This document shows, one piece after another, positions 890-62,735 of a stretch of 64,000 nucleotides of DNA. The notes under the pieces were generated by a model, which was given only the letters and a program-made list of their open reading frames with translations, was not told where the DNA came from and did no database searches. The stretch covers positions 4,834,603-4,898,602 of the forward strand of contig NZ_CP059735.1 of assembly GCF_000948975.2 (NCBI RefSeq), given 5' to 3'. Position numbers and translations under genes: made by a program. The stretch's first letter is position 1, and each line of letters starts with the position of its first letter. The DNA is from Thalassomonas actiniarum (GTDB taxonomy: Bacteria; Pseudomonadota; Gammaproteobacteria; Enterobacterales; Alteromonadaceae).

Positions 890-1384
890 ATGCGTACTGC
901 ACAAGATTTCAGCCCACTTTATCGTTCATTCATCGGTTTCGATCACTTAGCCAATCTAATCGACAAAGCAGCCAAAACCGAAAAGCAACCCAGTTATCCC
1001 CCGTATAACATTGAATCACTCACCGATGATCAATATCGTATTACCATGGCGGTTGCCGGTTTCGCCGAAGACGAACTGGATATAGAGTCCAAACAAAATA
1101 CCTTAGTTGTCAGCGGCACCAAAAACGCAACAGCGAATAAAAGTAATGCCGCAGAGAAAACTAAGGCAGAGCGCAAGTTCTTACATCAGGGGATTGCCGA
1201 CCGTAACTTTGAGCGTAAATTCCAGCTCGGCGACCATGTAAAAGTTGTCGGCGCCTTTATCGAACATGGCTTATTACATATAGATTTAGAAAGAGAAATT
1301 CCCGAGGCGTTAAAGCCAAGAAAAATTGCCATTAACGGCAAGAGTATCTTAACGGCCAAAGCCGATAAGCTTGCCCAGGTTTAA
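890..1384 (+). CDS. ibpA: Small heat-shock protein, IbpA/Hsp20 family (copy A)
   Basis: An ATP-independent holdase chaperone that binds unfolding proteins in the cytoplasm and hands them to DnaK/ClpB. The 164-residue protein has the IbpA/B layout: N-terminal [20 protein letters not shown], then the alpha-crystallin domain (about residues 45-145) with [36 protein letters not shown] and the [23 protein letters not shown] end. It carries a seven-residue insertion (around residues 84-92) relative to copy B. The start is fixed by the AGGA at 878-881. Expression should depend on RpoH and the ROSE-like leader, and a strong hairpin terminator follows. The gene is duplicated at 4055; its leader is more conserved than its coding sequence. 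Confidence 0.95.
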   Translation: MRTAQDFSPLYRSFIGFDHLANLIDKAAKTEKQPSYPPYNIESLTDDQYRITMAVAGFAEDELDIESKQNTLVVSGTKNATANKSNAAEKTKAERKFLHQGIADRNFERKFQLGDHVKVVGAFIEHGLLHIDLEREIPEALKPRKIAINGKSILTAKADKLAQV

Positions 1385-1436
1385 CACCCGGTTTCCCAAC
1401 TAAATTTTCCTTTCTATAGTTTTATGGTTTTATTTT

Positions 1437-1460
1437 GCCCGGCAATCTCCGGGCTTTTTT
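1437..1460 (+). terminator. Rho-independent terminator of hsp20 copy A
   Basis: GCCCGG (1437-1442), a six-base loop, CCGGGC (1449-1454), then six T. A sequence-related terminator follows copy B. Confidence 0.9.
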
Positions 1461-1544
1461 ATAGCCATAACGAAAAGCTTTGGTTCTTATACTGCCAGGC
1501 AAACAATGCGTGGATAATCAAACCTTAGCGCCTTGATTCCCTCT

Positions 1545-1946
1545 TTAAACAATAGCCAGCCAGGCCAGGGTGAGTAAGCAACTGATCACCAGCCACAAAC
1601 GCCAGTTACTCCATATACCAAACACCCCGATTTTTATCAGGGCAATATCCCGCCTCAAGCGCCATTTTAACCGTTGAAAACTCAGCTCTTCATTGAGCAA
1701 ATATTCCACCGATGACAGGCAGCTGCCCCAGGTTCCCCTGCCGCCGCTATAACTGCCGGCCATTTCAGGGCTAAGATTGTGCTGGTGCGCTGCTACCTGC
1801 TCCCTGAGCTGCTGCATATAGGCGTCGATATCCGGTGCATCAATAGCATGGCATACTGCATGAAAAGCCTTTATTGCCATCACGGACTCACCGACATCAT
1901 ATTGGCCGTGATGTATTTCCCAGGTGATTCTTTCTTTGCATAACAA
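1545..1946 (-). CDS. Hypothetical protein with C-terminal membrane segment, possibly 5'-interrupted
   Basis: The frame encodes about 133 residues ending in a hydrophobic segment (LWLVISCLLTLAWLAIV) that would be one membrane helix. The middle is soluble and includes SGGRGTWGSCLSSVEYLLNEE. I do not recognise the family. No ATG stands at the 5' end: the only candidates are a TTG at 1946 and an internal ATG near 1887. The open frame stops within the end of the IS110 element immediately upstream. Either the gene starts at the TTG, or its true start was removed by the insertion. Both are inference; a comparison with an IS-free relative would settle it. Confidence 0.45.
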   Translation of the reverse strand: MLCKERITWEIHHGQYDVGESVMAIKAFHAVCHAIDAPDIDAYMQQLREQVAAHQHNLSPEMAGSYSGGRGTWGSCLSSVEYLLNEELSFQRLKWRLRRDIALIKIGVFGIWSNWRLWLVISCLLTLAWLAIV

Positions 1947-1952
1947 GTGACT

Positions 1953-2004
1953 ATGGTGTCAACTCCTAATTTTTAACTCATTTTAGGATCCCACATGACA
2001 CCAT
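1953..2004. repeat. Inverted repeat at the transposase 3' end
   Basis: ATGGTGTCA (1953-1961) and its exact complement TGACACCAT (1996-2004) flank the last codons and stop of the transposase gene. It may mark the element end or act as a transcription block. Confidence 0.5.
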
Positions 2005-2926
2005 CTCTAACCATCGAATTTAAGATAACAATCATCTTTCTGACGCAGGCAATTATTGCTGTTTTTTTAGGTTTTCCAGCGGCCAATAATCGCTGATACG
2101 TATCTTTAAAAACAGGATTGCACTGAATTGCGGACATCATAGCCATGTACATAACCGTTCTGATTTTATGGCGACCACCGCGTATATTTCTTTGTCCCTG
2201 GTAAATACCACTTTCTCTATTAAATGGCGCAACACCAATGAGGGATGAAGCTTGTTTATTCGTTAAATATCCCAATTCAGGCATGTCGCTTAATAAGTTA
2301 AATGCAACCACATTACCTATGCCAGGTATGCTTTGAATAATGTCATTTTTAGCTTTATATTCAGCGCATCTATCCATCAGTTTTAGTAGTTTTTGGTCGA
2401 TTTTATCGAGCTGGTTTTTAATAGCTGTTAAAATTGGTTTGATGATGCTGGATATGTTTTTTGGCATTATCTGAAGCCGATTTTTTTCCATAGTTTGCAT
2501 CGTCATTAACTGTCTTCTCCTAGAAAGTAAATCACTCATTAATTGCATGGTCTCCGGCTTTAATGCTGACAATTTGGGCTTAATTGCTTCACCATAATGA
2601 GCTATAAGTTGGGCATCGAGTTTGTCTGTTTTAGCATGACGACCAATCGCTCCTGCAAATTTTTTAATGTGTGCTGGATTTGCGATAACAAAAGGTAATT
2701 TTTCTGTCGCACAGGCGATGCAAAATGCTTGTTCCAGTCGCCCCGTTGCTTCAATGATGATGCGAGTAGGATTGTATTTTTTGATTTCTTTAACGGCTTT
2801 ATTGATACCTTTCTCATCATTTGAAACAGTGAAATAGATGTCTAAAGGGCGTATGTAAATATCGAGTTGTGTTTTACCAGTATCAACGCCGATGTTAATT
2901 TCATTTTGATTATTGTTGTTATTCAT
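1973..2926 (-). CDS. IS110 family transposase (DEDD N-domain plus Transposase_20)
   Basis: A 317-residue recombinase that moves the element, as known for IS110, under guidance of a bridge RNA. The N-terminal RuvC-like DEDD domain (about residues 10-160) shows the acidic positions in INIGVDTGKTQLDIYI, IIIEATGRLEQ and KTDKLDAQLIAHYGE. The C-terminal Transposase_20 domain (about 195-290) has the helix-hairpin-helix like SIPGIGNVVAFNLLSDMPE, followed by SLIGVAPFNRESG and RGGRHKIRTVMYMA. The serine of that region fits the catalytic serine of the family. Length is normal and the frame is uninterrupted, so the element may be active. It is read toward the uncharacterised gene at 1545. Confidence 0.93.
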   Translation of the reverse strand: MNNNNNQNEINIGVDTGKTQLDIYIRPLDIYFTVSNDEKGINKAVKEIKKYNPTRIIIEATGRLEQAFCIACATEKLPFVIANPAHIKKFAGAIGRHAKTDKLDAQLIAHYGEAIKPKLSALKPETMQLMSDLLSRRRQLMTMQTMEKNRLQIMPKNISSIIKPILTAIKNQLDKIDQKLLKLMDRCAEYKAKNDIIQSIPGIGNVVAFNLLSDMPELGYLTNKQASSLIGVAPFNRESGIYQGQRNIRGGRHKIRTVMYMAMMSAIQCNPVFKDTYQRLLAAGKPKKTAIIACVRKMIVILNSMVRDGVMWDPKMS

Positions 2927-3190
2927 AATAAGCTGACTCTGCCTTGCTATTCGGGCTCGAGGCCCAGTTGACTATCCGAGTTTAATGCTTGGAGTCCTAT
3001 ACAGCGTTCTCACTTGTTATCGGTCTCTCAACAGAGGAGCCACGCAATCATCGAACTGCTGTATAAGAAGGCTTTGGTTGCAGCCAAAGCTTGGGCCTCA
3101 CACTACCCGAAAAGGTTTAAAAAGAATATTAAGATATGGGGGATATTATCCATACAAGTCAATAAGCTGCTTTAGTTGCGCTACCGACAA
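2927..3190 (-). ncRNA. Candidate IS110 bridge RNA region
   Basis: This non-coding stretch lies between the transposase start and the presumed right end of the element. It contains a perfect 7-bp hairpin, GCTTTGG/CCAAAGC (3071-3090, loop of six), and a compact GGGC/GCCC hairpin (2953-2965). IS110-group elements encode a bridge RNA of about 150-200 nt at this place, with two internal loops that match target and donor. I infer the role from position and hairpins; the guide loops were not assigned. Confidence 0.45.
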
Positions 3191-3200
3191 TGTACTGGTT

Positions 3201-3698
3201 TCAGTATTCATGACGGACTGGTTTCACCGCTATCTTTTGCATGTTTTCCCGGCAGGCGTGTCTGGAGCAACGTAAATAGCGTATTTGCACACCGGCATCC
3301 GTCAACCGGTAACCGGCAAAAAAAACGCCGGTTACATGATAGAGCCGCTCTTTTTGCCATTGTGGATTTAACAAATAGAGGGTTTGGCGTCGCTCAACAT
3401 CAAAACCATCGCTAATCAAAAACTTTTCTCCGGTATCCAACTGCTGATAGAAAAAAATCGCCGGCTTAATACAGTGCTTATTTTTCTGATCACAAAAAGA
3501 AACGGCGGTAGAGTCATAACGGAAAAGATCAGGAAATAACTGTTTATTCAACGACTGATAGATTTCATCTTCCACCTGACCAAGGAAAGTCACATGGCGG
3601 TTAAAACAATCATGCCCCTGTGAGCAGCTAAGCTCCTTGGGGGATAAGGCAAGACAATAACCGCTTATCAACAAAAAGAGTAAAAATAGGAATTTCAT
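3201..3698 (-). CDS. Hypothetical secreted cysteine-containing protein
   Basis: The 165-residue protein begins with a clear signal peptide (MKFLFLLFLLISGYCLA, cleavage near residue 17), so it is probably periplasmic. The mature part has three closely spaced cysteine pairs, in SCSQGHDC, SFCDQKNKHC and LRCSRHAC, which suggests disulfides. No known family was recognised. The stop codon lies at the presumed right end of the IS110 element, so the last residues may not be original. Upstream, 3699-3834 holds no gene and leads to the sigma-32 promoter of the second hsp20 copy on the other strand. Confidence 0.6.
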   Translation of the reverse strand: MKFLFLLFLLISGYCLALSPKELSCSQGHDCFNRHVTFLGQVEDEIYQSLNKQLFPDLFRYDSTAVSFCDQKNKHCIKPAIFFYQQLDTGEKFLISDGFDVERRQTLYLLNPQWQKERLYHVTGVFFAGYRLTDAGVQIRYLRCSRHACRENMQKIAVKPVRHEY

Positions 3699-3834
3699 CT
3701 TGTAATGACCAGATACTCTATGCTGTTTTTATTTTAGCAAAGAAATACCATTGCTTTTTTCACATTAAAAACAAGCCAGAACTCACACCGTTAGCCAGAG
3801 ATCCAATAAAAAGAGAAAATTTTTTCATTTTCTT

Positions 3835-3863
3835 CTTGAAAAAAATGTTATCGGTCCCATCTA
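3835..3863 (+). promoter_or_regulatory. Sigma-32 type heat-shock promoter, hsp20 copy B
   Basis: CTTGAA (3835-3840), a 14-base spacer and TCCCATCTA (3855-3863). Boxes and spacing equal those of copy A while the spacer sequence differs. Confidence 0.85.
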
Positions 3864-4054
3864 GTTAAATGTAGTCGCCGTAAAGGGACTCAATTAACCG
3901 CCTGTTCCGAGTGAAAGGCACTTTTATCCAGAAGCCGTAAGTCGCTTTAGCCGGTAAGTTCGCAACCTGAGTTGGAAATCACCCGCTAGTCAACCGCGCC
4001 CCATCTGCTTATTGGAAACTAACATATTGCTAACTTATTAATAGGATATGAATT
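3864..4054 (+). ncRNA. Conserved structured 5' leader of hsp20 copy B
   Basis: The partner of the leader at 700-889. Differences are limited to a few substitutions and three single-base indels. The ROSE-like hairpin is fully conserved except for one base in its loop. Confidence 0.7.
4023..4050 (+). promoter_or_regulatory. ROSE-like RNA thermometer hairpin, copy B
   Basis: CATATTGCT (4023-4031) pairs with AGGATATG (4043-4050) with one bulged G, as in copy A. The AGGA ribosome-binding site lies 8 nt from the ATG at 4055. Confidence 0.8.
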
Positions 4055-4528
4055 ATGCGTACACCACAAGATTTCAGCCCGCTTTACCGTTCATTTATCG
4101 GTTTCGATCACTTAGCCAGTTTAATCGACAAAGCTTCCAGAACCGAAAAACAATCCGGTTATCCTCCGTATAATGTTGAATTACTCGCTGACGACCAATA
4201 CCGTATCACCATGGCCGTTGCCGGTTTCGCCGAAGAAGAGCTGGATATCGAATCCCGGCAAAACACTTTAATCGTGACCGGAACCAAAGGGACAAACAAA
4301 ACCGAACAAACTGAGCGTAAATTCCTGTACCAGGGTATCGCCGACCGTAACTTTGAGCGCAAATTCCAGCTCGGTGACCATGTAAAAGTCATCGGTGCCT
4401 TTATCGAAAACGGTTTATTACACATAGATTTAGAAAGAGAAATTCCCGAGGCATTAAAGCCGAGAAAAATTGCCATTAACGGCAAGAGTTTATTAACGGC
4501 GAAAGCCGAGCAGCTTTCTCAGGAATAA
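4055..4528 (+). CDS. ibpA: Small heat-shock protein, IbpA/Hsp20 family (copy B)
   Basis: A 157-residue paralogue of the protein at 890, with the same alpha-crystallin core ([59 protein letters not shown]). It lacks the short lysine- and alanine-rich insertion of copy A ([14 protein letters not shown] here). The two nucleotide sequences differ by about 15 percent in the first 246 bases, often at third positions. It has its own sigma-32 promoter, thermometer leader and terminator, so each copy is an independent unit. IbpA and IbpB of enterobacteria work as a pair; whether these two have diverged in role cannot be told from sequence. Confidence 0.95.
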
Positions 4529-29435: not shown

Positions 29436-29910
29436 ACCTGAGCCTTTTATTGCAGTAAATAAACTTAATAGTAAACACCTTAAAGGCTGACAACCAGAAA
29501 ATAAAGTGGCGATACGCTACCGGAAAAGCAGAGAACAACAACAATAAAAAAGCGCCAATATCCTGATGGAAAAACAACAGTTTTTGTAGAAAACTAAGAC
29601 AACGCAAGATAATCACATGAAATAAAACAATATTTTTTTGATCAAAATTCACCCGATTTTAAGCGTGCATTTTTCAATTTAACCCGGTACCATAATCAAC
29701 GCTCATCCGATGAGCAGATTAGTAGCAGTGAGTGAGAAACTAGCCCCCACCCAGTGTTTTGATCGAATATTGTTACTCAGCTCCCGATATTACGGGGAAG
29801 ATAATAACCATTAAGGATTTACAAATTATTACCTAGGGAGCGGGTAAACCATGCCCGCAGTTGTCCCGAAAATAATCCGATCCTGGATTCACAATAAAAA
29901 AGGCAACAGT
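29436..29910. other. Intergenic region with a small palindrome
   Basis: About 475 bases between divergent SDR and PI-PLC genes with no convincing gene. GCTCATC C GATGAGC at 29701-29715 is a perfect 7-bp inverted repeat and may be a regulator site or small hairpin. An ATG at 29851 is in frame with the PI-PLC gene but reads a non-signal N-terminus. Confidence 0.5.
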
Positions 29911-31137
29911 ATGAATTTTAAATTAACACATGCCGCAGCAAGCTGCGTTTTAGCATTTGGCGCATTTATCGGCCAGGCCCAGGCCGACAGTGTCGATGAT
30001 TTCAATAACAGCTGGCAAGGCAAAGCACTAGCGGCGCAGCGTCTGATAGATGTATACAGCCCTATGGCGGATAACAATATTCCCGGTACCCACAACAGCT
30101 ATAATTCTGAAGAATATACCAGCTGTAACTTCTCTGTCGGTTGCCGCTACTTAGATCCGCAGCAAAAACTCACCATCAAAGATCAGTTGCGTTTAGGCGC
30201 CCGTTTCATTGAAATCGATGCCCACTGGACCACGAAAATGGAAAGCCTGTTTTCCTATCCGAAACGTTTGCTGATGTGTCACGGCTTTTGCAGCATCAAT
30301 GACAAATATCTGCACGAAGGCCTGAACGAAGTCAAAGACTGGCTCAACAGCAGCGCCAGCGACAATCAGGTATTGATCTTATATATAGAAGATCACAGCG
30401 ATGGCCACCAGGGGGATCTTTACGAGCAAATTAACTCTCGCTTTGGCCAATGGGTATACAAGAGCAATGGCTGTGGTTCCATTCCCAATACCTTAACCAA
30501 AGCCGATGTCCTGGCCCAGGGGAAAAAAGTCCTGGTTTGGGGTGACGGCGGCTGCCACAGCAATACTAACTGGAAAAACTTTGCCTTCACCGGTTTGGGA
30601 GATATCGGCCGCATCTGGGAAGACCGTACTACCGTCGCCAGTATTGGTAATGTTTTCACCGGCGGCAGCGACGATTATATCACCGCAAGCGATGTCACCA
30701 CCTATTTTAAAACCGGCGCCAATATCGTTAACCTCGATGATATGGTCACCAATGACGGCCGTTTAGCAGCGGGGATCTGGAGCTGGGACAGCAACGAACC
30801 CAATAACTCCGGCGGCAACCAGAATTGCGCGGTGCAATGGGGCAACGGCCGCTGGGACGATCAAAGCTGTGACAATAGCCGGGCTTTTGCCTGCCAAAGC
30901 GACAGTGACAACAGCTGGCAGGTAACAGATCAAACCGGCGCCTGGGCAAACGGCGAGAGTGCTTGTCAGCAGCTGGGCAGCCAGTATCACTTTAGCGTGC
31001 CCACCAATGCCATGGCCAATGAAGCATTAAAAACCGTCAAAGATGCCAAAGGGGTCGGCACGGTATGGCTAAACCACGATGACAGGCAAAACGAAGGCCA
31101 GTGGCTGGTAAGCGGAAAAAGCACGGTAAATTTCTAA
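29911..31137 (+). CDS. Secreted PI-PLC X-domain protein fused to a C-type lectin domain
   Basis: The ATG at 29911 (AAGG upstream) gives a clean signal peptide, MNFKLTHAAASCVLAFGAFIGQAQA, so the protein is exported. Residues about 40-280 form a PI-PLC X-like barrel: MADNNIPGTHNSYN holds the first catalytic His, LGARFIEIDAHW follows, and LLMCHGFCSIND the second His. Residues about 285-408 form a C-type lectin-like domain: WSWDSNEPNN then NCAVQWGNGRWDDQSCDNSRAFACQS, with EPN and WxD calcium/sugar motifs. The barrel would cleave a phosphoinositide or glycan-lipid linkage and the lectin would target sugars (inference). A strong terminator follows. Confidence 0.85.
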   Translation: MNFKLTHAAASCVLAFGAFIGQAQADSVDDFNNSWQGKALAAQRLIDVYSPMADNNIPGTHNSYNSEEYTSCNFSVGCRYLDPQQKLTIKDQLRLGARFIEIDAHWTTKMESLFSYPKRLLMCHGFCSINDKYLHEGLNEVKDWLNSSASDNQVLILYIEDHSDGHQGDLYEQINSRFGQWVYKSNGCGSIPNTLTKADVLAQGKKVLVWGDGGCHSNTNWKNFAFTGLGDIGRIWEDRTTVASIGNVFTGGSDDYITASDVTTYFKTGANIVNLDDMVTNDGRLAAGIWSWDSNEPNNSGGNQNCAVQWGNGRWDDQSCDNSRAFACQSDSDNSWQVTDQTGAWANGESACQQLGSQYHFSVPTNAMANEALKTVKDAKGVGTVWLNHDDRQNEGQWLVSGKSTVNF

Positions 31138-31332: not shown

Positions 31333-32112
31333 TTAAATTTTGTTGCTGCCGTGGCTTTTCACCTTCAGGATATTAATATTTTCAAGCTCGCTGATCTGGG
31401 CTTTTAACTGCTCTTCCAGAGTGTCGATTTCGACAACGGACAAACAAATTTGCTCGCCTTTGCTTTCCAATTCAGCACCACGTGCTTCCATTTCGTTTTC
31501 TATCTTATTGCCAAAATTTTCCATTTTAGTTTCAAAGGCCCCGGTATCGCCGGAGAATAACATTTGCTGCCCCACGGCGATCAATAAGCTGCCCATAGAA
31601 TCGCGCATGGCTTTTTCCACTACAGACTCGATACGCTGCTCAAATTCCTCACCAAAAAATTCTTCACCGGCAAAACCGTGTTCGTCCACATAAAACCCCT
31701 TATCGGCATCAAAGCGGGTTTGTACTTGCTCACGCAAGGCCGTCAGTTCACGGGTCAGATCGGCCCCGACATCATTGCCCGGCCCCAATAATTCATTAAA
31801 GGCCATATTCACGCCTTCCACCGCTAAATCTATGCCTTCAATGGCGATAGATTTTACTTCCGGTACAACTGCGCGGATACTGGCGGCATATTCGGTGACC
31901 AGGGACTGCTGGCTGGCATTTAACTCGATATTTTTGCCATCGACGACTAAACGGTTATCTTCAAGAATGCTATAAACAGGCTTTTTATCCTGCATAAATT
32001 CAATACCCGAGCTGTCAATTTTGATCCCGCCTTCCAGTTCGACGTCACAGGAGTCATGGGCATAAAGACTGGTAGAGGTTAAAATCAGAGTACTTGCTAA
32101 TAATGTTTTCAT
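31333..32112 (-). CDS. DUF2884 (YggN-like) periplasmic protein
   Basis: A protein of about 259 residues. Start MKTLLASTLILTSTSLYAHDSC at 32112 has AAAGGAAA upstream and gives a signal peptide cleaved near AHA/LYA. The mature part matches the YggN/DUF2884 family: CDVELEGGIKIDSSGIEF, then VDGKNIELNASQQSLVTEYAASIRAVVPEVKSIAIEGIDLAVEGV, and a long helical C-terminal half rich in Glu. Two cysteines are present (near positions 24 and 229 of the mature frame). The function of the family is unknown; it is periplasmic. Single gene. Confidence 0.85.
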   Translation of the reverse strand: MKTLLASTLILTSTSLYAHDSCDVELEGGIKIDSSGIEFMQDKKPVYSILEDNRLVVDGKNIELNASQQSLVTEYAASIRAVVPEVKSIAIEGIDLAVEGVNMAFNELLGPGNDVGADLTRELTALREQVQTRFDADKGFYVDEHGFAGEEFFGEEFEQRIESVVEKAMRDSMGSLLIAVGQQMLFSGDTGAFETKMENFGNKIENEMEARGAELESKGEQICLSVVEIDTLEEQLKAQISELENINILKVKSHGSNKI

Positions 32113-32351: not shown

Positions 32352-32711
32352 TTAGTGCAACCAAAGTTCCGCTTGTTTTTTACAGTAAAAGTTTTCCATG
32401 TCCAGCTTTTTATTGGCGGCAATTTGCTGGATCAGCATTTGCCTGTGCCCCTGCATAGATACCAGCCGGGCTATTTTAAAGCGCTGAAGCTCCTGTTTTA
32501 GCTGCTTCATCAGTTGCAACAACTCCAAAGAGCCACAAGCCAATTCAAGTTCACGGCAATCTTTAAACACTTTAGTGATCTTATGCCTGTCGGCCATTTC
32601 AAACAGATTTTGATAGCTGTGTTTGATATCACTGATACCGGCTTTGCCCGTAAATACGACATATAAGCAATCCCGGACGATTTGCATCCGGTACTGGAAA
32701 TTAGCAGCCAT
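32352..32711 (-). CDS. SpoIIAA/STAS-like protein under a cyclic-di-GMP riboswitch
   Basis: About 119 residues from MAANFQYRMQIVRDCLYVVFTGKAGISDIKHSY. This strand-helix pattern and the end FYCKKQAELWLH fit the SpoIIAA-like (PF11964, STAS-related) fold, where the last helix usually reads as FxxxxEAxxWL. The start ATG at 32711 overlaps the stop of the 68-residue ORF upstream, so the two are translationally coupled. The operon is preceded by a GEMM riboswitch at 33016-33090. A role as a cyclic-di-GMP-controlled regulator or adaptor is inference. Confidence 0.7.
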   Translation of the reverse strand: MAANFQYRMQIVRDCLYVVFTGKAGISDIKHSYQNLFEMADRHKITKVFKDCRELELACGSLELLQLMKQLKQELQRFKIARLVSMQGHRQMLIQQIAANKKLDMENFYCKKQAELWLH

Positions 32712-32907
32712 GACCGCCACCACTTTTATTCGCGACAGGAGATAAAGATAAGGATTCATTTTTTGCGGCTAAATACATCTGATATTCACAAATGCTTTCA
32801 CACAAAAGGCGTGAATCACCTAAAGTAACATCGCCGCGGCTGAATTTCTCCCCCATTTGTGCCAACAGGGTGAGAGAAAATTTTTCAAAACATTGTTCTA
32901 CATACAT
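32701..32907 (-). CDS. Small uncharacterised protein, first gene of riboswitch operon
   Basis: About 68 residues from the ATG at 32907 (MYVEQCFEKFSLTLLAQMGEKFSRGDVTLGDSRLLCESICEYQMYLA). A TTG two codons earlier is possible. The peptide is soluble, with three cysteines and a glycine-rich tail (SGGGHGC). I do not recognise it. It ends on the start codon of the STAS-like gene. Its leader of about 110 nt links it to the GEMM aptamer, so its expression should respond to cyclic-di-GMP. Confidence 0.55.
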   Translation of the reverse strand: MYVEQCFEKFSLTLLAQMGEKFSRGDVTLGDSRLLCESICEYQMYLAAKNESLSLSPVANKSGGGHGC

Positions 32908-33015
32908 AATCAAACAGCATAACTTTAAACAACAAGATAAAAGTTACGAAATCAGGGGGCAAACACTAGGTCTGTTATAAGAGAAGAAATCTGGTGAATA
33001 TTGTCACGATCAAAC

Positions 33016-33090
33016 TTGCAACCCAGCCATCATAGGAAACCCCTTAGATCCGTGGTTTTGCGTGAGTACTTTTTCAAGCACCTTGCCTTT
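33016..33090 (-). promoter_or_regulatory. Cyclic-di-GMP-I (GEMM) riboswitch aptamer
   Basis: Read on the minus strand the segment shows the GEMM features in order. These are GGCAAGG (P1 side), a 7-bp P2 stem capped by a GAAA tetraloop (33064-33082), and the invariant ACGCAAAACC (33054-33063). CACGG, CTAAGG (33042-33047) and CCTATG (33031-33036) form the tetraloop-receptor side of P3. GGCTGGGTTGC closes P1 at the 3' end. It lies about 110 bases before the first ORF of the operon. No clear terminator was found between, so a translational switch is possible. Confidence 0.85.
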
Positions 33091-33240
33091 TACAACTAGT
33101 TTACACCAAGTAAACAGGTCTGACCATAATTAAAAACATTAATTAATATCGGCTTGAATTAAATCACAAAATAACGGAAATAAATTTAAAAGGACCCGGT
33201 CATGTTAGAGACAGTGATTAAAAATTAATGGGCCAAGACC

Positions 33241-35457
33241 ATGAATTATTTAATACGACTCAAACATCAACAACACACTCCCTGGCAACTCCTGGCATTT
33301 CTGCTGATTTTTATCCTTTGCCTGCTCACTTCACCTGTTAGCAAGGCTGCGGATGTCGAGACCAGTTTTGAAACCACAGATCTGTCCGGCTCCTTTACCC
33401 TGGGCACCGCACCCAACACAGTCACTTTCACCAATGGCGAAGCCAAATTTGCCGGTATAGCATCCCTTTATCACAGCGGCTCTCAGGCCTTTATGGTAGA
33501 AAACAATACCGCGACGGTCAGTTTCGCGACCCCGGCCGCAGAACTCTCGGTCTTTTTAAAGGCACAATCCGGCGCGGCGGGGGCGACGGTCAATGTGTTT
33601 GATATTAGCGATAACCTGGTCGATAGCTATACTGCCACAACCTCATGGCAGGAGCTCAGCATAACCTCCGGCGAAGGCATCAGCAGGGTCGAACTCATCA
33701 ACAATAGTTCCAGCTATGCAGTCTTTGATGACTTCAGTTTCACCGCCCTCACCGCTGTCGAGCCCCCCGAAGATCCGGTAAAACTTGACGATCCTATTGC
33801 GCTGCCTATCTTTTCAGGCGGATTAAAATTGGCACTTGAGCCCTTTAGCCAGGAATTAGTTGCGCCTGTCTGGGGAACAAATGCCCCGGGTATCAATGAT
33901 TATTTCTATGTTATCGATCAGGTCGGTTTTATCTGGGGGATCTCCATGGCTTCGGGAGAGAAAGCCCTCACAGCCGATTTATCTGCTTTACTGGTCGATG
34001 TCGGCATTGAAGCATTGGGAGGTTTTGATGAAAGGGGCTTACTCGGTTTGGCCTTTCATCCGGATTTTGTCAGCAATAAAACCCTGTATACCTTTAGCTC
34101 ACAACCCGTCTTCGGGGAAGCCGATTTTTCAACCATGCCCGAAGGTGAAAACGCCGATCACCAGGGAGTATTAACCAGATGGTTCGCCGACATTGGCGGT
34201 GAAGGAGGTTTGATAATAGACCTCGAATCGGCACAAGAAATACTGCGCATCGACCAGCCACAGTTTAACCATAACGGCGGCGCCATTACTTTTGATAATA
34301 ACAGCTTATTGTATATTGCCCTGGGAGACGGCGGCGGCGCCGATGATATTGACGGACAAAGCTTTCTCGGCACTGCCATGGTCGGCCACGGCACCGATGG
34401 CAACGGCCAGGACACAGGGAATGTCTTAGCAACCATTTTACGGATAGACCCAGATGGCAACAACAGTGAAAATGGCGCCTACGGCATACCGCCAGATAAT
34501 CCCTTTGTCGGTATCAGCGGGGTGGATGAAATTTTTGCTTACGGCTTACGAAACCCATACCGGATATCTTTTGATCCTGTCTCGGGAAACTTATATGCCG
34601 GTGATGTCGGCCAGAATGATATCGAAGAAATTAATAATATCACCTCGGGAGGCAATTATGGCTGGAATATCCGCGAGGGCAGCTTTGGCTTTTTTGCCAA
34701 CGGCGACGGTGAAGGTTATGTCTATAGCCAGTCTGAGACGATGGACACCATAAACCCCGTAGTCGAATACGATCATGACGAAGGGGTCGCGGTGATCGGC
34801 GGTTTTGTCTACCGGGGAACAAGCTATGAAGATCTGCTGGGGCGGTATGTTTTTGGTGATTTCAATGGCCGGTTATTTTACCTCAACAATGAAAACACAA
34901 TTTCTGAGTTTCAAGACAAGGATGACATCGATGTCGGCGCAATTTTAGGCTTTGCCCGGGATGCCGGCGGTGAGCTTTATGTCCTAGCCAATGAAAACGG
35001 CCTGCCGAGCGGCAACAGCGGCGCCCTGTATAAAATCACCCTGTTGCCAAATCAATCGCCGGTGGCCGATGCCGGCAGTGCACAAACCGTCAATGAAGGA
35101 GACTTGGTAACATTAAATGCCGGTGGCAGCAGCGATCCCGACGGCGATCCCTTGAGGTATCAATGGACGCAAAGCAGCGGGACCTCTGTCACCTTAAACA
35201 ATCCGACCGCGGCAAGTCCGACTTTTACCGCCCCCAGTGTCAGCTCAACATCAAGCTTCAGCTTTACGGTAGAAGTCAATGACGGTCATTTAGCCGACAA
35301 TGCCAGTGTCGAGATCACGGTCAATAATGTTGAAGAAGAAGACTCTGGCAATGATGGGGGCGGAGGCGGCGGTAGCTTGTCCTTTGTCATTTTCCTGTTA
35401 GCCTTGGTTTTCACCGTCAAAGGGCTGATAACCCCCTTAACCCCGGGGAATAATTAG
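33241..35457 (+). CDS. PQQ-dependent sugar dehydrogenase-like protein with PKD domain and GlyGly-CTERM-type tail
   Basis: A 738-residue exported protein. The signal segment WQLLAFLLIFILCLLTSPVSKA is followed by a jelly-roll domain (about 40-170). A glucose/sorbosone dehydrogenase beta-propeller (about 185-600) follows, with GFDERGLLGLAFHPDF, QPQFNHNGGAITF, IFAYGLRNPYRISFDP, GDVGQNDIEEIN and GGNYGWNIREG. These match soluble PQQ glucose dehydrogenase repeats. A PKD-like domain (NQSPVADAGSAQTVNEGDLVTLNAGGSSDPDGDPLRYQWTQ) precedes DGGGGGGSLSFVIFLLALVFTVKG. That end resembles the GlyGly-CTERM anchor cut by rhombosortase. Substrate and PQQ use are inferred. The stop overlaps the convergent zapE stop. 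Confidence 0.88.
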   Translation: MNYLIRLKHQQHTPWQLLAFLLIFILCLLTSPVSKAADVETSFETTDLSGSFTLGTAPNTVTFTNGEAKFAGIASLYHSGSQAFMVENNTATVSFATPAAELSVFLKAQSGAAGATVNVFDISDNLVDSYTATTSWQELSITSGEGISRVELINNSSSYAVFDDFSFTALTAVEPPEDPVKLDDPIALPIFSGGLKLALEPFSQELVAPVWGTNAPGINDYFYVIDQVGFIWGISMASGEKALTADLSALLVDVGIEALGGFDERGLLGLAFHPDFVSNKTLYTFSSQPVFGEADFSTMPEGENADHQGVLTRWFADIGGEGGLIIDLESAQEILRIDQPQFNHNGGAITFDNNSLLYIALGDGGGADDIDGQSFLGTAMVGHGTDGNGQDTGNVLATILRIDPDGNNSENGAYGIPPDNPFVGISGVDEIFAYGLRNPYRISFDPVSGNLYAGDVGQNDIEEINNITSGGNYGWNIREGSFGFFANGDGEGYVYSQSETMDTINPVVEYDHDEGVAVIGGFVYRGTSYEDLLGRYVFGDFNGRLFYLNNENTISEFQDKDDIDVGAILGFARDAGGELYVLANENGLPSGNSGALYKITLLPNQSPVADAGSAQTVNEGDLVTLNAGGSSDPDGDPLRYQWTQSSGTSVTLNNPTAASPTFTAPSVSSTSSFSFTVEVNDGHLADNASVEITVNNVEEEDSGNDGGGGGGSLSFVIFLLALVFTVKGLITPLTPGNN

Positions 35458-40398: not shown

Positions 40399-41868
40399 AT
40401 GTTATTTGTTCCCCTGTTAGTCATCATTTTCCTGCTCGCTGCCCCGGTAAGTGCCAATGTTGTCAACCTCACGGCGGATGAACAGGCCTGGTTAGAGCAA
40501 CATCCAAAAATTCGTATTGCCGGTGATCCCGACTATGCCCCGTTCGAATTCCGCAATTCCCGGGGGGAGCTGATGGGAATTTCCCAGGACATACTCGGTT
40601 ACTGCCTGGATGTGTTAGCAATTGAACTGGTTGAGGTTCCAACCCATAGCTGGAAACAGGCACAAGACCACCTCAATGCCGGGACAGCAGATCTGCTCAC
40701 TGTCGCCAGCCAAACCACACAGCGGGATAGATACCTGACATTCAGCCAGCCTTACCTATACCTGCCGGTGGTGATCCTGACCCGCAATGATATTAACCGA
40801 CAACTCTCCCTGGAAGATCTATACGGCCTGACTTTGATCACTGTTTATGGTTTTGGCGTCAATGAATACCTGGAGCAGTTTAGCGATAAAATCAACCTGG
40901 TTTATGCCCGATCCACCGCAGAAGCCCTGCAAAAACTTTCCTTTGGCAGCGTAGATGCCATGCTCCTCAATCTGGGCACCGCCAGCTATCAGATACAGGC
41001 ATTAAAACTTACCAATCTGCAGGTTTCCGGGGAGATAGATTATACCTACCAGCTTGCCTTTGCCGTGCGCAGCGAGCTTAGCCCTTTGATCCCGATCCTC
41101 GATAAAGTCCTGGCCGCTATGCCACCCGGGCAAAAACAGCAATTTATTAGCAAATGGATCAGCTTAGAACAAGGCCTGTGGCGCCCCAGTAAATACCAGA
41201 CGCTGGTGACCATAGCCATCATTTCCGCCCTGGGGTTTGCCCTGATGTGTGCCTTATACCTGTCTCTTAACCGCACCCTCACTGCGCAAAATAAGGCCCT
41301 GGAGCAAAAATCCCTCTTACTGGAAAAAGAAATTGAAGAGCGTAAATTATTGGAAATACAACTAAAGGAGCAGGTATTTCAGGACGACCTCACAGGGTTG
41401 GCCAACCGGAGAAAACTGCTGGAAAGAGTGGCGCTGGAATGGCCAAGATCCCTGAGAGCCTCGCGCCCTATTTCAATTTTGATGTTAGATCTGGATCATT
41501 TCAAAATAATCAATGACAGCTTTGGCCATGACATCGGCGACAAGGTATTGAAAAGCACCTCAAGTATCTTGCAAGATTCCACCCGGATCACAGATCTGGT
41601 GGCGCGCTGGGGCGGTGAAGAATTCGTGTTAATGTTACCGGAAACCGGCCACGACCTTGCCATAGAAATCGCCGAGCGTATCCGGGAAAAAGTGGCAGCT
41701 ACCGAGTTGGCATTTCAGGACAACAAGATCACCTTCACCATCAGTATCGGTGTAGCCACCACAGAAAACGGCGAGCCGAGTTTTACCGAATTGTTGAGTA
41801 TTTCGGATATGGCCCTGTACCAGTCTAAAGAGCAGGGACGAAACCGGGTTTCTTCTATTATTATCTAA
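40399..41868 (+). CDS. Diguanylate cyclase with periplasmic solute-binding sensor domain
   Basis: A 489-residue enzyme making cyclic-di-GMP. A signal/anchor (LLVIIFLLAAPVSA) is followed by a periplasmic SBP_bac_3 domain (about residues 25-260; IRIAGDPDYAPFEFRNSRGELMGISQD). A membrane helix (about 272-292) and a coiled coil follow. The GGDEF domain has DDLTGLANRRKLLERV, DHFKIINDSFGHDIGDKVL and ARWGGEEFVLMLPETG. The active site is GGEEF and an inhibitory I-site RxxD (RITD) stands five residues before it. It should respond to an amino-acid-like or other small ligand in the periplasm. Confidence 0.93.
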   Translation: MLFVPLLVIIFLLAAPVSANVVNLTADEQAWLEQHPKIRIAGDPDYAPFEFRNSRGELMGISQDILGYCLDVLAIELVEVPTHSWKQAQDHLNAGTADLLTVASQTTQRDRYLTFSQPYLYLPVVILTRNDINRQLSLEDLYGLTLITVYGFGVNEYLEQFSDKINLVYARSTAEALQKLSFGSVDAMLLNLGTASYQIQALKLTNLQVSGEIDYTYQLAFAVRSELSPLIPILDKVLAAMPPGQKQQFISKWISLEQGLWRPSKYQTLVTIAIISALGFALMCALYLSLNRTLTAQNKALEQKSLLLEKEIEERKLLEIQLKEQVFQDDLTGLANRRKLLERVALEWPRSLRASRPISILMLDLDHFKIINDSFGHDIGDKVLKSTSSILQDSTRITDLVARWGGEEFVLMLPETGHDLAIEIAERIREKVAATELAFQDNKITFTISIGVATTENGEPSFTELLSISDMALYQSKEQGRNRVSSIII

Positions 41869-51314: not shown

Positions 51315-52535
51315 TTAGTCCTGATATAACACTACGGCATTGCGGCCTTTTTCCTTGGCCTGGTACAAGGCATTATCCGCCGCTTCAAATATCGATTCCT
51401 GGCATTGATTGTTTAAGTCCATTTCAGCGATACCAAAGGTGGCCGTCACCGAGAAACGTTTGTTATTGGCAAGTTTAAACTCTTTTTCCGCCATGGTTTC
51501 CCGGATACGCTCAACCATATTGACGATATCCTTGCCGTGAGTGTTGGGAAAGCACAACACAAATTCATCGCCGCCAAAGCGCCCGGCGATGTCTTCCGGA
51601 CGTTTCACCTGGGTCAGAATCTCACCGAAACTTGCCAGTACCTTATCCCCCGCCTGGTGCCCCAGGGTGTCGTTGATTTGCTTGAAATGATCCAGGTCGC
51701 AGACACAAATACACAGAGGCTGTTTATGACGTTTGGCAGCATTTATTGCCTCTGCCAGGCGTTCAAAGAAATAACGGCGGTTGATCAATTTCGTCAGGGG
51801 ATCATGGGTGGCAAAATAGGCCAGCTCTTCTATCGCCTTTTTCCTGTGCTGCATCACCTGGTACATCATAAACAGCATAATCGTCCCCAGGGAGTACACA
51901 AACAGGGTAAAGAGCACCACCCCCTGTATCACCCAGCTTTCATGTTTGTCCACGGCAATCACGGATTGCTGGGTAAAGCGCTGTACTTCATCGCGCAAAC
52001 TGGTTAATTCCAGGCGCAGCTCTTTTTCTTCTTCATTTAAAATGCGGATCACTTGTTCGGGTATTTTTCCGCCGCCGCTTTTGATGGTGTTGATCATGGC
52101 AATCACCTGCTCATGATATTGCTGGTGCTCCTGACCGATTTGGTCCAGCAACTGGTTTACCCGCACCATCTCCGCCCGGGTTTCCGGCTGCCCCAATGAC
52201 ATCAGCGGAATAATAAATTCTTTCAATGTTGCCAGCGCATTATCAAACTTTTTACCGGTACGGATAAAGCTGTCTTCCAGGGTCTGGATCACCACCCCCT
52301 GGTGACCGTCGCTTTGCTGATGTAACTTCTCAATTAACAGCGTCTGTTCAAATTGCCGGTCGATAAGGGGCAGCAGCTGAGTCACCAGCGGCAGGTCCTT
52401 ATTGGCGACATCTTCAAATTCGGTTTTAATTTTATGCATTTGCCAGTAGGCAAAACCGCCATTAACCAGGATTAAAGCGGCGATAGCAAAGGCGATAAGA
52501 AAGATATAACGGTTGTTTTTTGTATGTTGCGGCAT
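51315..52535 (-). CDS. Diguanylate cyclase with periplasmic four-helix-bundle-like sensor
   Basis: A membrane enzyme of about 406 residues. Helix 1 is YIFLIAFAIAALILVNGGFAYWQ; a periplasmic helical region (about 40-180) resembles chemotaxis-receptor bundles; helix 2 is WVIQGVVLFTLFVYSLGTIMLFMMYQ. The GGDEF domain has ATHDPLTKLINRRYFFERL, DHFKQINDTLGHQAGDKVLA and AGRFGGDEFVLCFPNT. The active site is GGDEF, with an RxxD I-site (RPED) five residues before. It makes cyclic-di-GMP in the cytoplasm. The start is ATG at 52535; an ATG three codons earlier is possible. Confidence 0.92.
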   Translation of the reverse strand: MPQHTKNNRYIFLIAFAIAALILVNGGFAYWQMHKIKTEFEDVANKDLPLVTQLLPLIDRQFEQTLLIEKLHQQSDGHQGVVIQTLEDSFIRTGKKFDNALATLKEFIIPLMSLGQPETRAEMVRVNQLLDQIGQEHQQYHEQVIAMINTIKSGGGKIPEQVIRILNEEEKELRLELTSLRDEVQRFTQQSVIAVDKHESWVIQGVVLFTLFVYSLGTIMLFMMYQVMQHRKKAIEELAYFATHDPLTKLINRRYFFERLAEAINAAKRHKQPLCICVCDLDHFKQINDTLGHQAGDKVLASFGEILTQVKRPEDIAGRFGGDEFVLCFPNTHGKDIVNMVERIRETMAEKEFKLANNKRFSVTATFGIAEMDLNNQCQESIFEAADNALYQAKEKGRNAVVLYQD

Positions 52536-52630
52536 AAATTCCAAAATCTACAGCAGGAGAAATGCTCAAAGCATAAAAGCCTTAACCGTCAAAGTCCAGC
52601 AGATACAAATTCATGTCAACACAAAGGAGC

Positions 52631-61332: not shown

Positions 61333-62625
61333 TTAAGCGCACACCCGATCGCGCCCCGCCTGCTTCGCTTTATATAAGGCTTTATCGGCGCGGATCAGCA
61401 AATCGTCAATATCATCATCTTCGGCTTGCATTTCACTGATACCTATACTGACGGTGGACTTGATTTTATCTTTCCAGGGACCTGACAGCTGATGATCCCG
61501 CACCCGCTGGCACAAACGCTCGGCCATTGTCCTGGCGGCATCACCGGAAGTTTCCGGCAGCAATACCGAAAACTCTTCCCCGCCCATGCGGCCGATGCAA
61601 TCGGCGCCCCTGAGATTGGCGGCACATATCCTGGCCACTTCTCTTAACACCTGGTCGCCGACATGGTGGCCGTAGGTATCATTAATTTCCTTAAAGCAGT
61701 CGATATCAATCGCCAGCAGACTCAGGGATAAATGATAGCGTTTGGCCCGGATAAACTCTTTTTCTGCCTGGTCGATAAAATTACGCCGGTTTGCCAGCTG
61801 GGTCAGTTCATCGGTATTGGCTTTAACTTCCAGGTTTTTTTTCAGGGCGATTAATTCGGTAATATCATTGGAAAAGCCGATAAAGCTCGACAGCTCTTCT
61901 TGCTCGTCTTTAATCGGCACCTTGGTAGACCAGTAATAGTGGGTATTGCCCTTACCGTCGGAAAAAGATTCCTCTCCCGAGACTTTCTCCCCCGTGGCCA
62001 GCAGTTTATTATCAAGAATGGCAAAGTCGGCGGCGGTTTCCGGCGGCAGAAAGTCTTCGCCTTTCTTGCCTATGATATCTTCCGGCTCAACGCCGAATAA
62101 CTTGGCGGTGCTGGCATTGATATACCTGAAACGACACTCCCTGTCTTTCATATAGATATAGGCATCGACATTATTGAGTACGGTATCGAGCAGTTTCTCG
62201 TTTTCCTTGAGCTTGATATCGAGCAGTTTGCGCTCGGTAATATCGGTGGAGATGCCGTACATGCCGCTCACCCGCCCCTGCTCATCAAACAGGGGCTTTT
62301 TCACCGTCCAGTAATAACGTATCTCGCCGGTACTGTGGATAACGTTTTTTTCTTCCGCCTCCACCGTCTGGCTGTGCTCCATCACCAAACGGTCGTTGCT
62401 CATAAGTTCATCCGACTGCTCGATGGAAAAAAACTTGCTGTCGTTTTGACCGATGATTTCTTCCAGCGGACAGGCAAATAAATCCCTGACCATTTTGTTG
62501 ACATAGGTATAACAGCCTTGCAAATCTTTGATATAAACATAAGCGCCGATATTATCCAGCGTCAGGTGAAGCGCGGCAATATCCCCGGATAAGCTTGCTA
62601 TTTGTTTTTCAAGATCAAGACTCAT
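61333..62625 (-). CDS. Diguanylate cyclase with two PAS domains
   Basis: A soluble protein of about 430 residues. Two PAS domains follow each other (about residues 20-125 and 150-250): LDNIGAYVYIKDLQGCYTYVNKMVRDLF and LNNVDAYIYMKDRECRFRYINASTAKLFGVEPEDIIG. The GGDEF domain then has ANTDELTQLANRRNFIDQ, DCFKEINDTYGHHVGDQVLREV and IGRMGGEEFSVLLPETSG. The active site is GGEEF and an RxxD I-site (RGAD) lies five residues before. It should make cyclic-di-GMP in response to a PAS-bound cofactor or cytoplasmic cue. The start ATG at 62625 has GGAG eight bases upstream. Confidence 0.93.
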   Translation of the reverse strand: MSLDLEKQIASLSGDIAALHLTLDNIGAYVYIKDLQGCYTYVNKMVRDLFACPLEEIIGQNDSKFFSIEQSDELMSNDRLVMEHSQTVEAEEKNVIHSTGEIRYYWTVKKPLFDEQGRVSGMYGISTDITERKLLDIKLKENEKLLDTVLNNVDAYIYMKDRECRFRYINASTAKLFGVEPEDIIGKKGEDFLPPETAADFAILDNKLLATGEKVSGEESFSDGKGNTHYYWSTKVPIKDEQEELSSFIGFSNDITELIALKKNLEVKANTDELTQLANRRNFIDQAEKEFIRAKRYHLSLSLLAIDIDCFKEINDTYGHHVGDQVLREVARICAANLRGADCIGRMGGEEFSVLLPETSGDAARTMAERLCQRVRDHQLSGPWKDKIKSTVSIGISEMQAEDDDIDDLLIRADKALYKAKQAGRDRVCA

Positions 62626-62735
62626 AACACTCACTCCGGCAAAACGCCTTCACTAAATACCGCTTGTCAGCACTAAGCCGCAAACAACCCGGCTGCAATT
62701 GATATTTTATAAAACAAGATCTAAACGGTAACATA

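Follow-up and report, generated by a model that had tools for sequence, protein, structure and literature searches.

A cyclic-di-GMP-I riboswitch before a two-gene operon with a remote SpoIIAA-like protein in Thalassomonas actiniarum

Riboswitches that sense cyclic-di-GMP (c-di-GMP) are known to precede genes of varied function. The targets named in the available part of one source, for class I or for a class left unstated, include gbpA, tfoX, and genes for a collagen adhesin, a chemotaxis protein, fimbriae, and chitinase (PMC6366702). According to the same part, two riboswitches of this class in Vibrio cholerae respond oppositely and neither acts via termination, so the ON or OFF sign of a given element cannot be read from its class (PMC6366702). 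At the protein level, small STAS-related proteins take part in c-di-GMP networks in the HsbA-HsbD, BgrV-BgrR, and SiaC-SiaD systems, as described in the available part of PMC8457831.

The locus described here resembles both groups. Its aptamer shares with the V. cholerae c-di-GMP-I riboswitches Vc1 and Vc2 a score over the gathering cutoff, the helix layout, a GAAA-capped P2, and the ACGCAAA segment. It is followed by two small genes, ORF1 and ORF2, the second of which encodes a remote relative of SpoIIAA, and a STAS-related protein would thus again stand within a c-di-GMP network.

The aptamer, its leader, and the other riboswitches of the genome

The window, meaning the whole 64,000-nucleotide stretch of T. 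actiniarum DNA that was analysed, holds a single Rfam match over gathering. This is a c-di-GMP-I (GEMM-I) aptamer on the minus strand (RF01051), which cmscan scored at 57.5 bits (cutoff 35, E 1.3e-8) with full coverage of the model (1–87). An earlier note on this DNA had named a GEMM-I riboswitch here from a GAAA-capped P2, ACGCAAA, CTAAGG/CCTATG, and a closing GGTTGC; the Infernal search bears out the identification and each of these segments is present. The location it gave was also correct, with ends (33016–33090) that fall slightly short on both sides (Table 1). A covariance model of our own, made from 38 family aptamers including the focal one, scores the element at 70.5 bits. By model score the RNA is a genuine c-di-GMP-I aptamer, and it is predicted to bind the ligand. 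G11, G12, and C13 are invariant in the 38 aligned family aptamers as well as in all eight aptamers that were found linked to ORF2 homologs. The G, A, and C positions of the focal aptamer we take to be G20, A47, and C92 of the Vc2 structure, where G20 is presumably the guanine that favours c-di-GMP over cGAMP; it is present here.

Table 1. Positions of the riboswitch, the operon, and neighbouring features in the window.
Feature	Position	Strand	Basis
c-di-GMP-I (GEMM-I) riboswitch aptamer	33014..33097	-	RF01051 57.5 bits; own model 70.5 bits; compensatory changes
Candidate sigma-70 promoter	33098..33126	-	TGGTCA 33126-33121, 17 nt, TAAACT 33103-33098; by eye
Linker / expression platform, 106 nt	32908..33013	-	alignment of four species
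ORF1, 68 aa, no family found	32701..32907	-	dN/dS 0.09-0.32; four same-genus genomes
ORF2, 119 aa, remote SpoIIAA-like (STAS-type)	32352..32711	-	hhalign vs PF11964; dN/dS 0.04-0.15
Sigma-54-like site before DUF2884, TGGCAT-N5-TCGC	32194-32180	-	by eye
DUF2884 gene, possible third target	31333..32109	-	PF11101 187.9 bits
Three GGDEF genes	40399-41868, 51315-52544, 61333-62634		

A candidate promoter lies directly 5' of the aptamer, with 8 of 12 consensus matches and a score below the promoter-scan threshold. The four Thalassomonas leaders share most of this sequence, though the DNA farther upstream differs in one of them (G095). We infer a transcript start just upstream of the aptamer. In the four-species alignment the linker contains GCCCCCTGATTTCG, and a conserved hairpin, GTAACTTT...AAAGTTAT, precedes the start codon with a predicted energy of -6.5 kcal/mol in three species and -4.2 in G095. 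The site scan of the window found no terminator-like sites in the focal linker, and no ribosome-binding site before ORF1 was obvious by eye. Given the lack of a terminator-like site in the focal linker and the short linkers of a second riboswitch-bearing genus, translation is the likelier level of control.

Two linker elements may take part in switching. GCCCC(C)TGAT pairs with the P3 strand of the aptamer in the free fold of three of the four Thalassomonas leaders; this pairing is no better than in shuffles and is only a candidate for the linker switch. Forcing the aptamer in folding frees the GCCCC element in all four leaders, with no consistent change in the accessibility of the start codon, and the same procedure had no visible effect on two leaders of the second genus (G254 and G467). 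The other element, TGCC, is a possible partner of the GGCAA core of the aptamer and occurs in 9/9 linkers. Its longer form TTGCC is found in 7/9 linkers vs. 0/8 other leaders of this genome. The GGCAA-TGCC pairing reaches a combined P of 0.048 over six leaders that are related and not independent, and is a lead only.

The class is common in the family, with at least one match in 72 of 118 genomes, and the T. actiniarum genome (two contigs, 7.49 Mb) has nine. The first genes after the other eight riboswitches encode a GGDEF protein, two small DUF3718 proteins, an MCP that carries a NIT domain, a secretion protein of the ShlB type with a filamentous-haemagglutinin-like gene behind it (by eye), a MotY-like protein ahead of a sigma-54 activator and of flagellar genes (these last by eye), a short protein that precedes a trypsin-like protease, and one protein without a Pfam match. 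Most of these belong to motility, surface, or secretion themes, from which the focal operon stands apart. Direct feedback is suggested by the GGDEF gene, as read in G000, that follows one of these riboswitches. In the leaders of this gene in all four genomes (L074, L082, L087, L095), GGTAACTTTGC is complementary to the aptamer strand GCAAAGTTACC, at a shuffle p of 0 to 0.11, or 0.11 to 0.15 by another score. Before a DUF3718 gene in the four Thalassomonas genomes (L075, L083, L088, L093), GTGGTTTTT with a T-rich tail is complementary enough to pair with AAAACCAC of the aptamer. This terminator-like pairing might be prevented by ligand, making the leader an ON switch, an unproven reading with shuffle p of 0.19–0.26 and 0.31–0.52.

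ORF1, ORF2, and the surrounding genes

Two small genes lie downstream of the aptamer on the same strand, as the earlier note had described, and overlap by 11 nt in all four Thalassomonas species. The dN/dS values of six species pairs (Table 1) indicate that both are real genes under selection. A search of 196 family genomes found ORF1 in 4, each of them a Thalassomonas. Its small size, its restriction to the genus, and its overlap with ORF2 would also suit a role as a leader peptide, with ORF1 regulating ORF2 and having no protein function of its own, and the linkers of G254 and G467 (69 and 71 nt) hold no counterpart of it. We regard this role as rather unlikely, as the selection on ORF1 and its well conserved core of ~50 residues exceed what a mere leader would need.

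The earlier note had labelled ORF2 SpoIIAA/STAS-like. A Pfam search up to E 1 gave no match for focal ORF1 or ORF2, and the gathering score of PF11964, the SpoIIAA-like family, was not reached. Profile-profile comparison bore the label out as a remote kinship. With hhalign, 17 ORF2 homologs matched 18 PF11964 members at a probability of 91.4 and an E-value, for one comparison, of 9.2e-7 over 111 columns. The PF11964 members came from the same family of bacteria; 20 loci were fetched and 19 taken, of which one gave an empty row. The match covers almost the full length, including the C-terminal F...A..WL pattern, whereas focal ORF2 by itself matches no Pfam family. Weak PF11964 matches also occur in 6 of the 17 homologs (best E 0.0013). 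A profile search of the PDB placed SpoIIAA chains at E 0.17–0.34, with an unrelated chain, KWOCA_73, better at 0.1. Single-sequence fold prediction of ORF2 was all helical with a mean pLDDT of 55.7, and unusable. Together these comparisons support ORF2 as a remote SpoIIAA-like protein, not as a proven member of PF11964. The contig scan with the single protein found one close relative, an ORF2 gene at 98% identity in a Thalassomonas record.

A gene downstream on this strand encodes a DUF2884 protein, and a longer riboswitch transcript might have this as its important product with ORF1 and ORF2 as passengers. A DUF2884-like gene also lies 3' of the ORF2 ortholog in G074 and G003 (PF11101 confirmed for G003), and the site scan found no terminator-like site between ORF2 and DUF2884. 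Nevertheless, we consider this arrangement improbable. DUF2884 occurs in 56 of 59 family genomes, and 30 of its loci, picked regardless of ORF2, contained no convincing aptamer (best 12.7 bits, E 0.67). In the second genus it is the ORF2 homolog that the riboswitch precedes, with a cytidine deaminase-like gene (by eye) next in G254, the member of that genus whose neighbouring genes were read, and DUF2884 has its own sigma-54-like upstream site (Table 1). Sites similar to the latter were seen by eye in L014 and L015.

The three GGDEF genes counted in the window by the earlier note are there, but they add little as evidence. The 81 GGDEF matches of the genome give an expectation of 0.69 per 64 kb and a Poisson P of 0.033 for three or more, uncorrected, and the three genes are not thereby tied to the focal operon. 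An antisense effect on the divergent GSDH gene (33241-35457) was considered and rejected. In G095 a ZapE-like gene (by eye) takes its place and the riboswitch and ORF1-ORF2 are retained. The GSDH gene, which does not stand beside the riboswitch in that genome, is not part of the system. Elsewhere in the window, one gene (29887-31134) has weak matches to PI-PLC-X (24.6 bits) and C-type lectin (33.4 bits), and two near-alike small heat-shock-type genes flank an IS110-like transposase at 890-4528 (by eye).

The riboswitch-gene link in relatives

ORF2 homologs were sampled from 395 genomes drawn from the larger family and from 108 genomes of one genus. A profile of five orthologs gave 71 matches in 61 of the 395 genomes at E 1e-6; with 20 and 49 further loci, 140 distinct loci (hand count) were scanned with the 38-aptamer model, or in the case of three Thalassomonas loci with Rfam only. 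At 8 of these 140 loci the ORF2 homolog has an aptamer directly 5' of it that exceeds the Rfam cutoff. These comprise all four Thalassomonas genomes, in which the aptamer precedes ORF1-ORF2, and four species of one other genus; a link of the kind that the earlier note proposed to look for in relatives is therefore present. The second-genus aptamers score 59.5 (G254), 62.8 (G467), 62.6 (G403), and 46.3 bits (G437) with Rfam and lie 67 to 90 nt from the start codon. The other 15 homolog loci of the first scan had no aptamer over gathering cutoff.

In a third genus, G074 carries a degenerate, below-cutoff aptamer before its ORF2 ortholog (L014, 1910-2002, minus strand). This copy lacks ACGCAAA and scores 25.3 bits with Rfam and 20.3 bits (E 0.016) with our own model. 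It is followed by GCTTGCCTTTTT, complementary to the GGCAAGC of the aptamer and terminator-like (p 0.009 vs. shuffles). The remaining 131 of the 140 loci showed no convincing riboswitch, so the ORF2-type protein does not depend on one. The nearest to a match among them, ~330 nt upstream in G243 (L195), was discounted at 11.8 bits and E 0.59. A degenerate aptamer suspected by eye in G003 (L015) was unsupported by the model, also without filters, and none was found by the model in L268.

The helices of the linked aptamers have been kept by compensatory change. Across the seven distinct sequences, 97.6% of cells pair, 6 of 18 base pairs have both partners exchanged, and the covariation score is 0.378; none of 500 shuffles reached these three values. 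The count of further pair types was at chance (223/500 shuffles). The focal aptamer deviates at 7 of the 37 columns whose conservation among family aptamers is 90% or higher, and at 2 of the 19 that are invariant in the other 37. These two are positions 47 (C to G) and 73 (G to T), which look like both sides of one exchanged P3 pair, C-G elsewhere, G-U in the focal aptamer, and A-U in the second genus (pairing by eye). That the aptamer is a decaying copy without regulatory role in Thalassomonas is very improbable: decay does occur at this locus, as the G074 copy shows, and two invariant columns are affected here, but a single exchanged pair would explain both, the helices show compensation, and the aptamer is identical in the four species except for its first two letters while the coding regions have diverged.

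Sequence comparison also bears on common descent. GAT[AG]GCTG is found in 8/8 linked aptamers vs. 0/73 other family aptamers, and [TC]CACGCAAA in 8/8 vs. 1/73; as the eight sequences had been inspected before the patterns were drawn up, and a single one of the 73 comes from the second genus, the contrast describes more than it tests. Outside Thalassomonas the focal aptamer is nearest to those of G467 (0.74 identity) and G254 (0.73), compared with 0.68 for the closest of the other aptamers in its genome, and the degenerate G074 copy is closest in identity to the Thalassomonas aptamers. Not every comparison fits: after that of G467, the closest to the G254 aptamer is an unlinked one at 0.75, with the Thalassomonas aptamers level at 0.74, and that of G437 is nearest to an unlinked one (0.62 vs. 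0.61).

A tree of ORF2 proteins was made from 157 extracted sequences, giving 131 distinct rows. It is a quick tree with few columns, long branches that meet, and many open forks. The second genus contributes four proteins with a riboswitch, and these fall outside a supported clade of 62 proteins that lack one, as expected if the element was present early and lost later. The riboswitch label requires 4 changes on the tree vs. 7.8 in shuffles (0/500 as low), and one riboswitch-free row, L268, lies among the riboswitch-bearing proteins. The plain reading is that of an old riboswitch-gene pair, which some lineages probably retained and others lost; alternatively, the pair may have moved between genera by transfer. 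A more far-reaching idea, which we put forward as speculative and doubtful, is that these aptamers form a distinct c-di-GMP-I subgroup whose lasting association with one SpoIIAA-like branch predates the divergence of at least two genera, with the protein acting on a diguanylate cyclase or other c-di-GMP component in one feedback circuit.

Proposed circuit and comparison with known systems

It is quite probable, in our judgement, that the c-di-GMP aptamer sets the expression of ORF1-ORF2 and that ORF2 is a SpoIIAA-like regulator of a signalling step. Transcription would begin just 5' of the class I aptamer, and binding of c-di-GMP would fix P2 and P3 and so alter how the 106-nt linker ahead of ORF1 folds. 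This refolding would set translation of ORF1 or, less likely, transcription, and translation of ORF2 would follow that of ORF1 through the 11-nt overlap. The ORF2 protein would most likely bind another signalling protein, by analogy with HsbA, BgrV, and SiaC, STAS-type partners of diguanylate cyclases as described in the available part of PMC8457831. Through this operon c-di-GMP would then tune how much of a regulator is made, and that regulator would act on some downstream or feedback step.

A literature search did not find a pairing of a c-di-GMP riboswitch with a STAS or SpoIIAA gene; it covered the opening lines of abstracts and passages of PMC6366702, PMC8457831, and PMC9943018. The riboswitch class is known, and what is new is its SpoIIAA-like target and the recurrence of this target in eight species of two genera. 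The pairing points to an unstudied output of c-di-GMP signalling. Genes under c-di-GMP riboswitches reveal outputs of the signal with no assumption about a protein receptor, and a SpoIIAA-like family of unknown role hereby gains a concrete, testable place in this signalling.

The locus differs from the known c-di-GMP-I riboswitches in that its target is a SpoIIAA-like gene, and the linked aptamers differ from the 73 other family aptamers in holding GAT[AG]GCTG. It differs from the HsbA-HsbD, BgrV-BgrR, and SiaC-SiaD systems in that ORF1-ORF2 includes no kinase, phosphatase, or cyclase. The amount of the protein here would instead be controlled by an RNA, and if the proposal is true, two layers of control, an RNA sensor and a STAS-type partner protein, would be joined.
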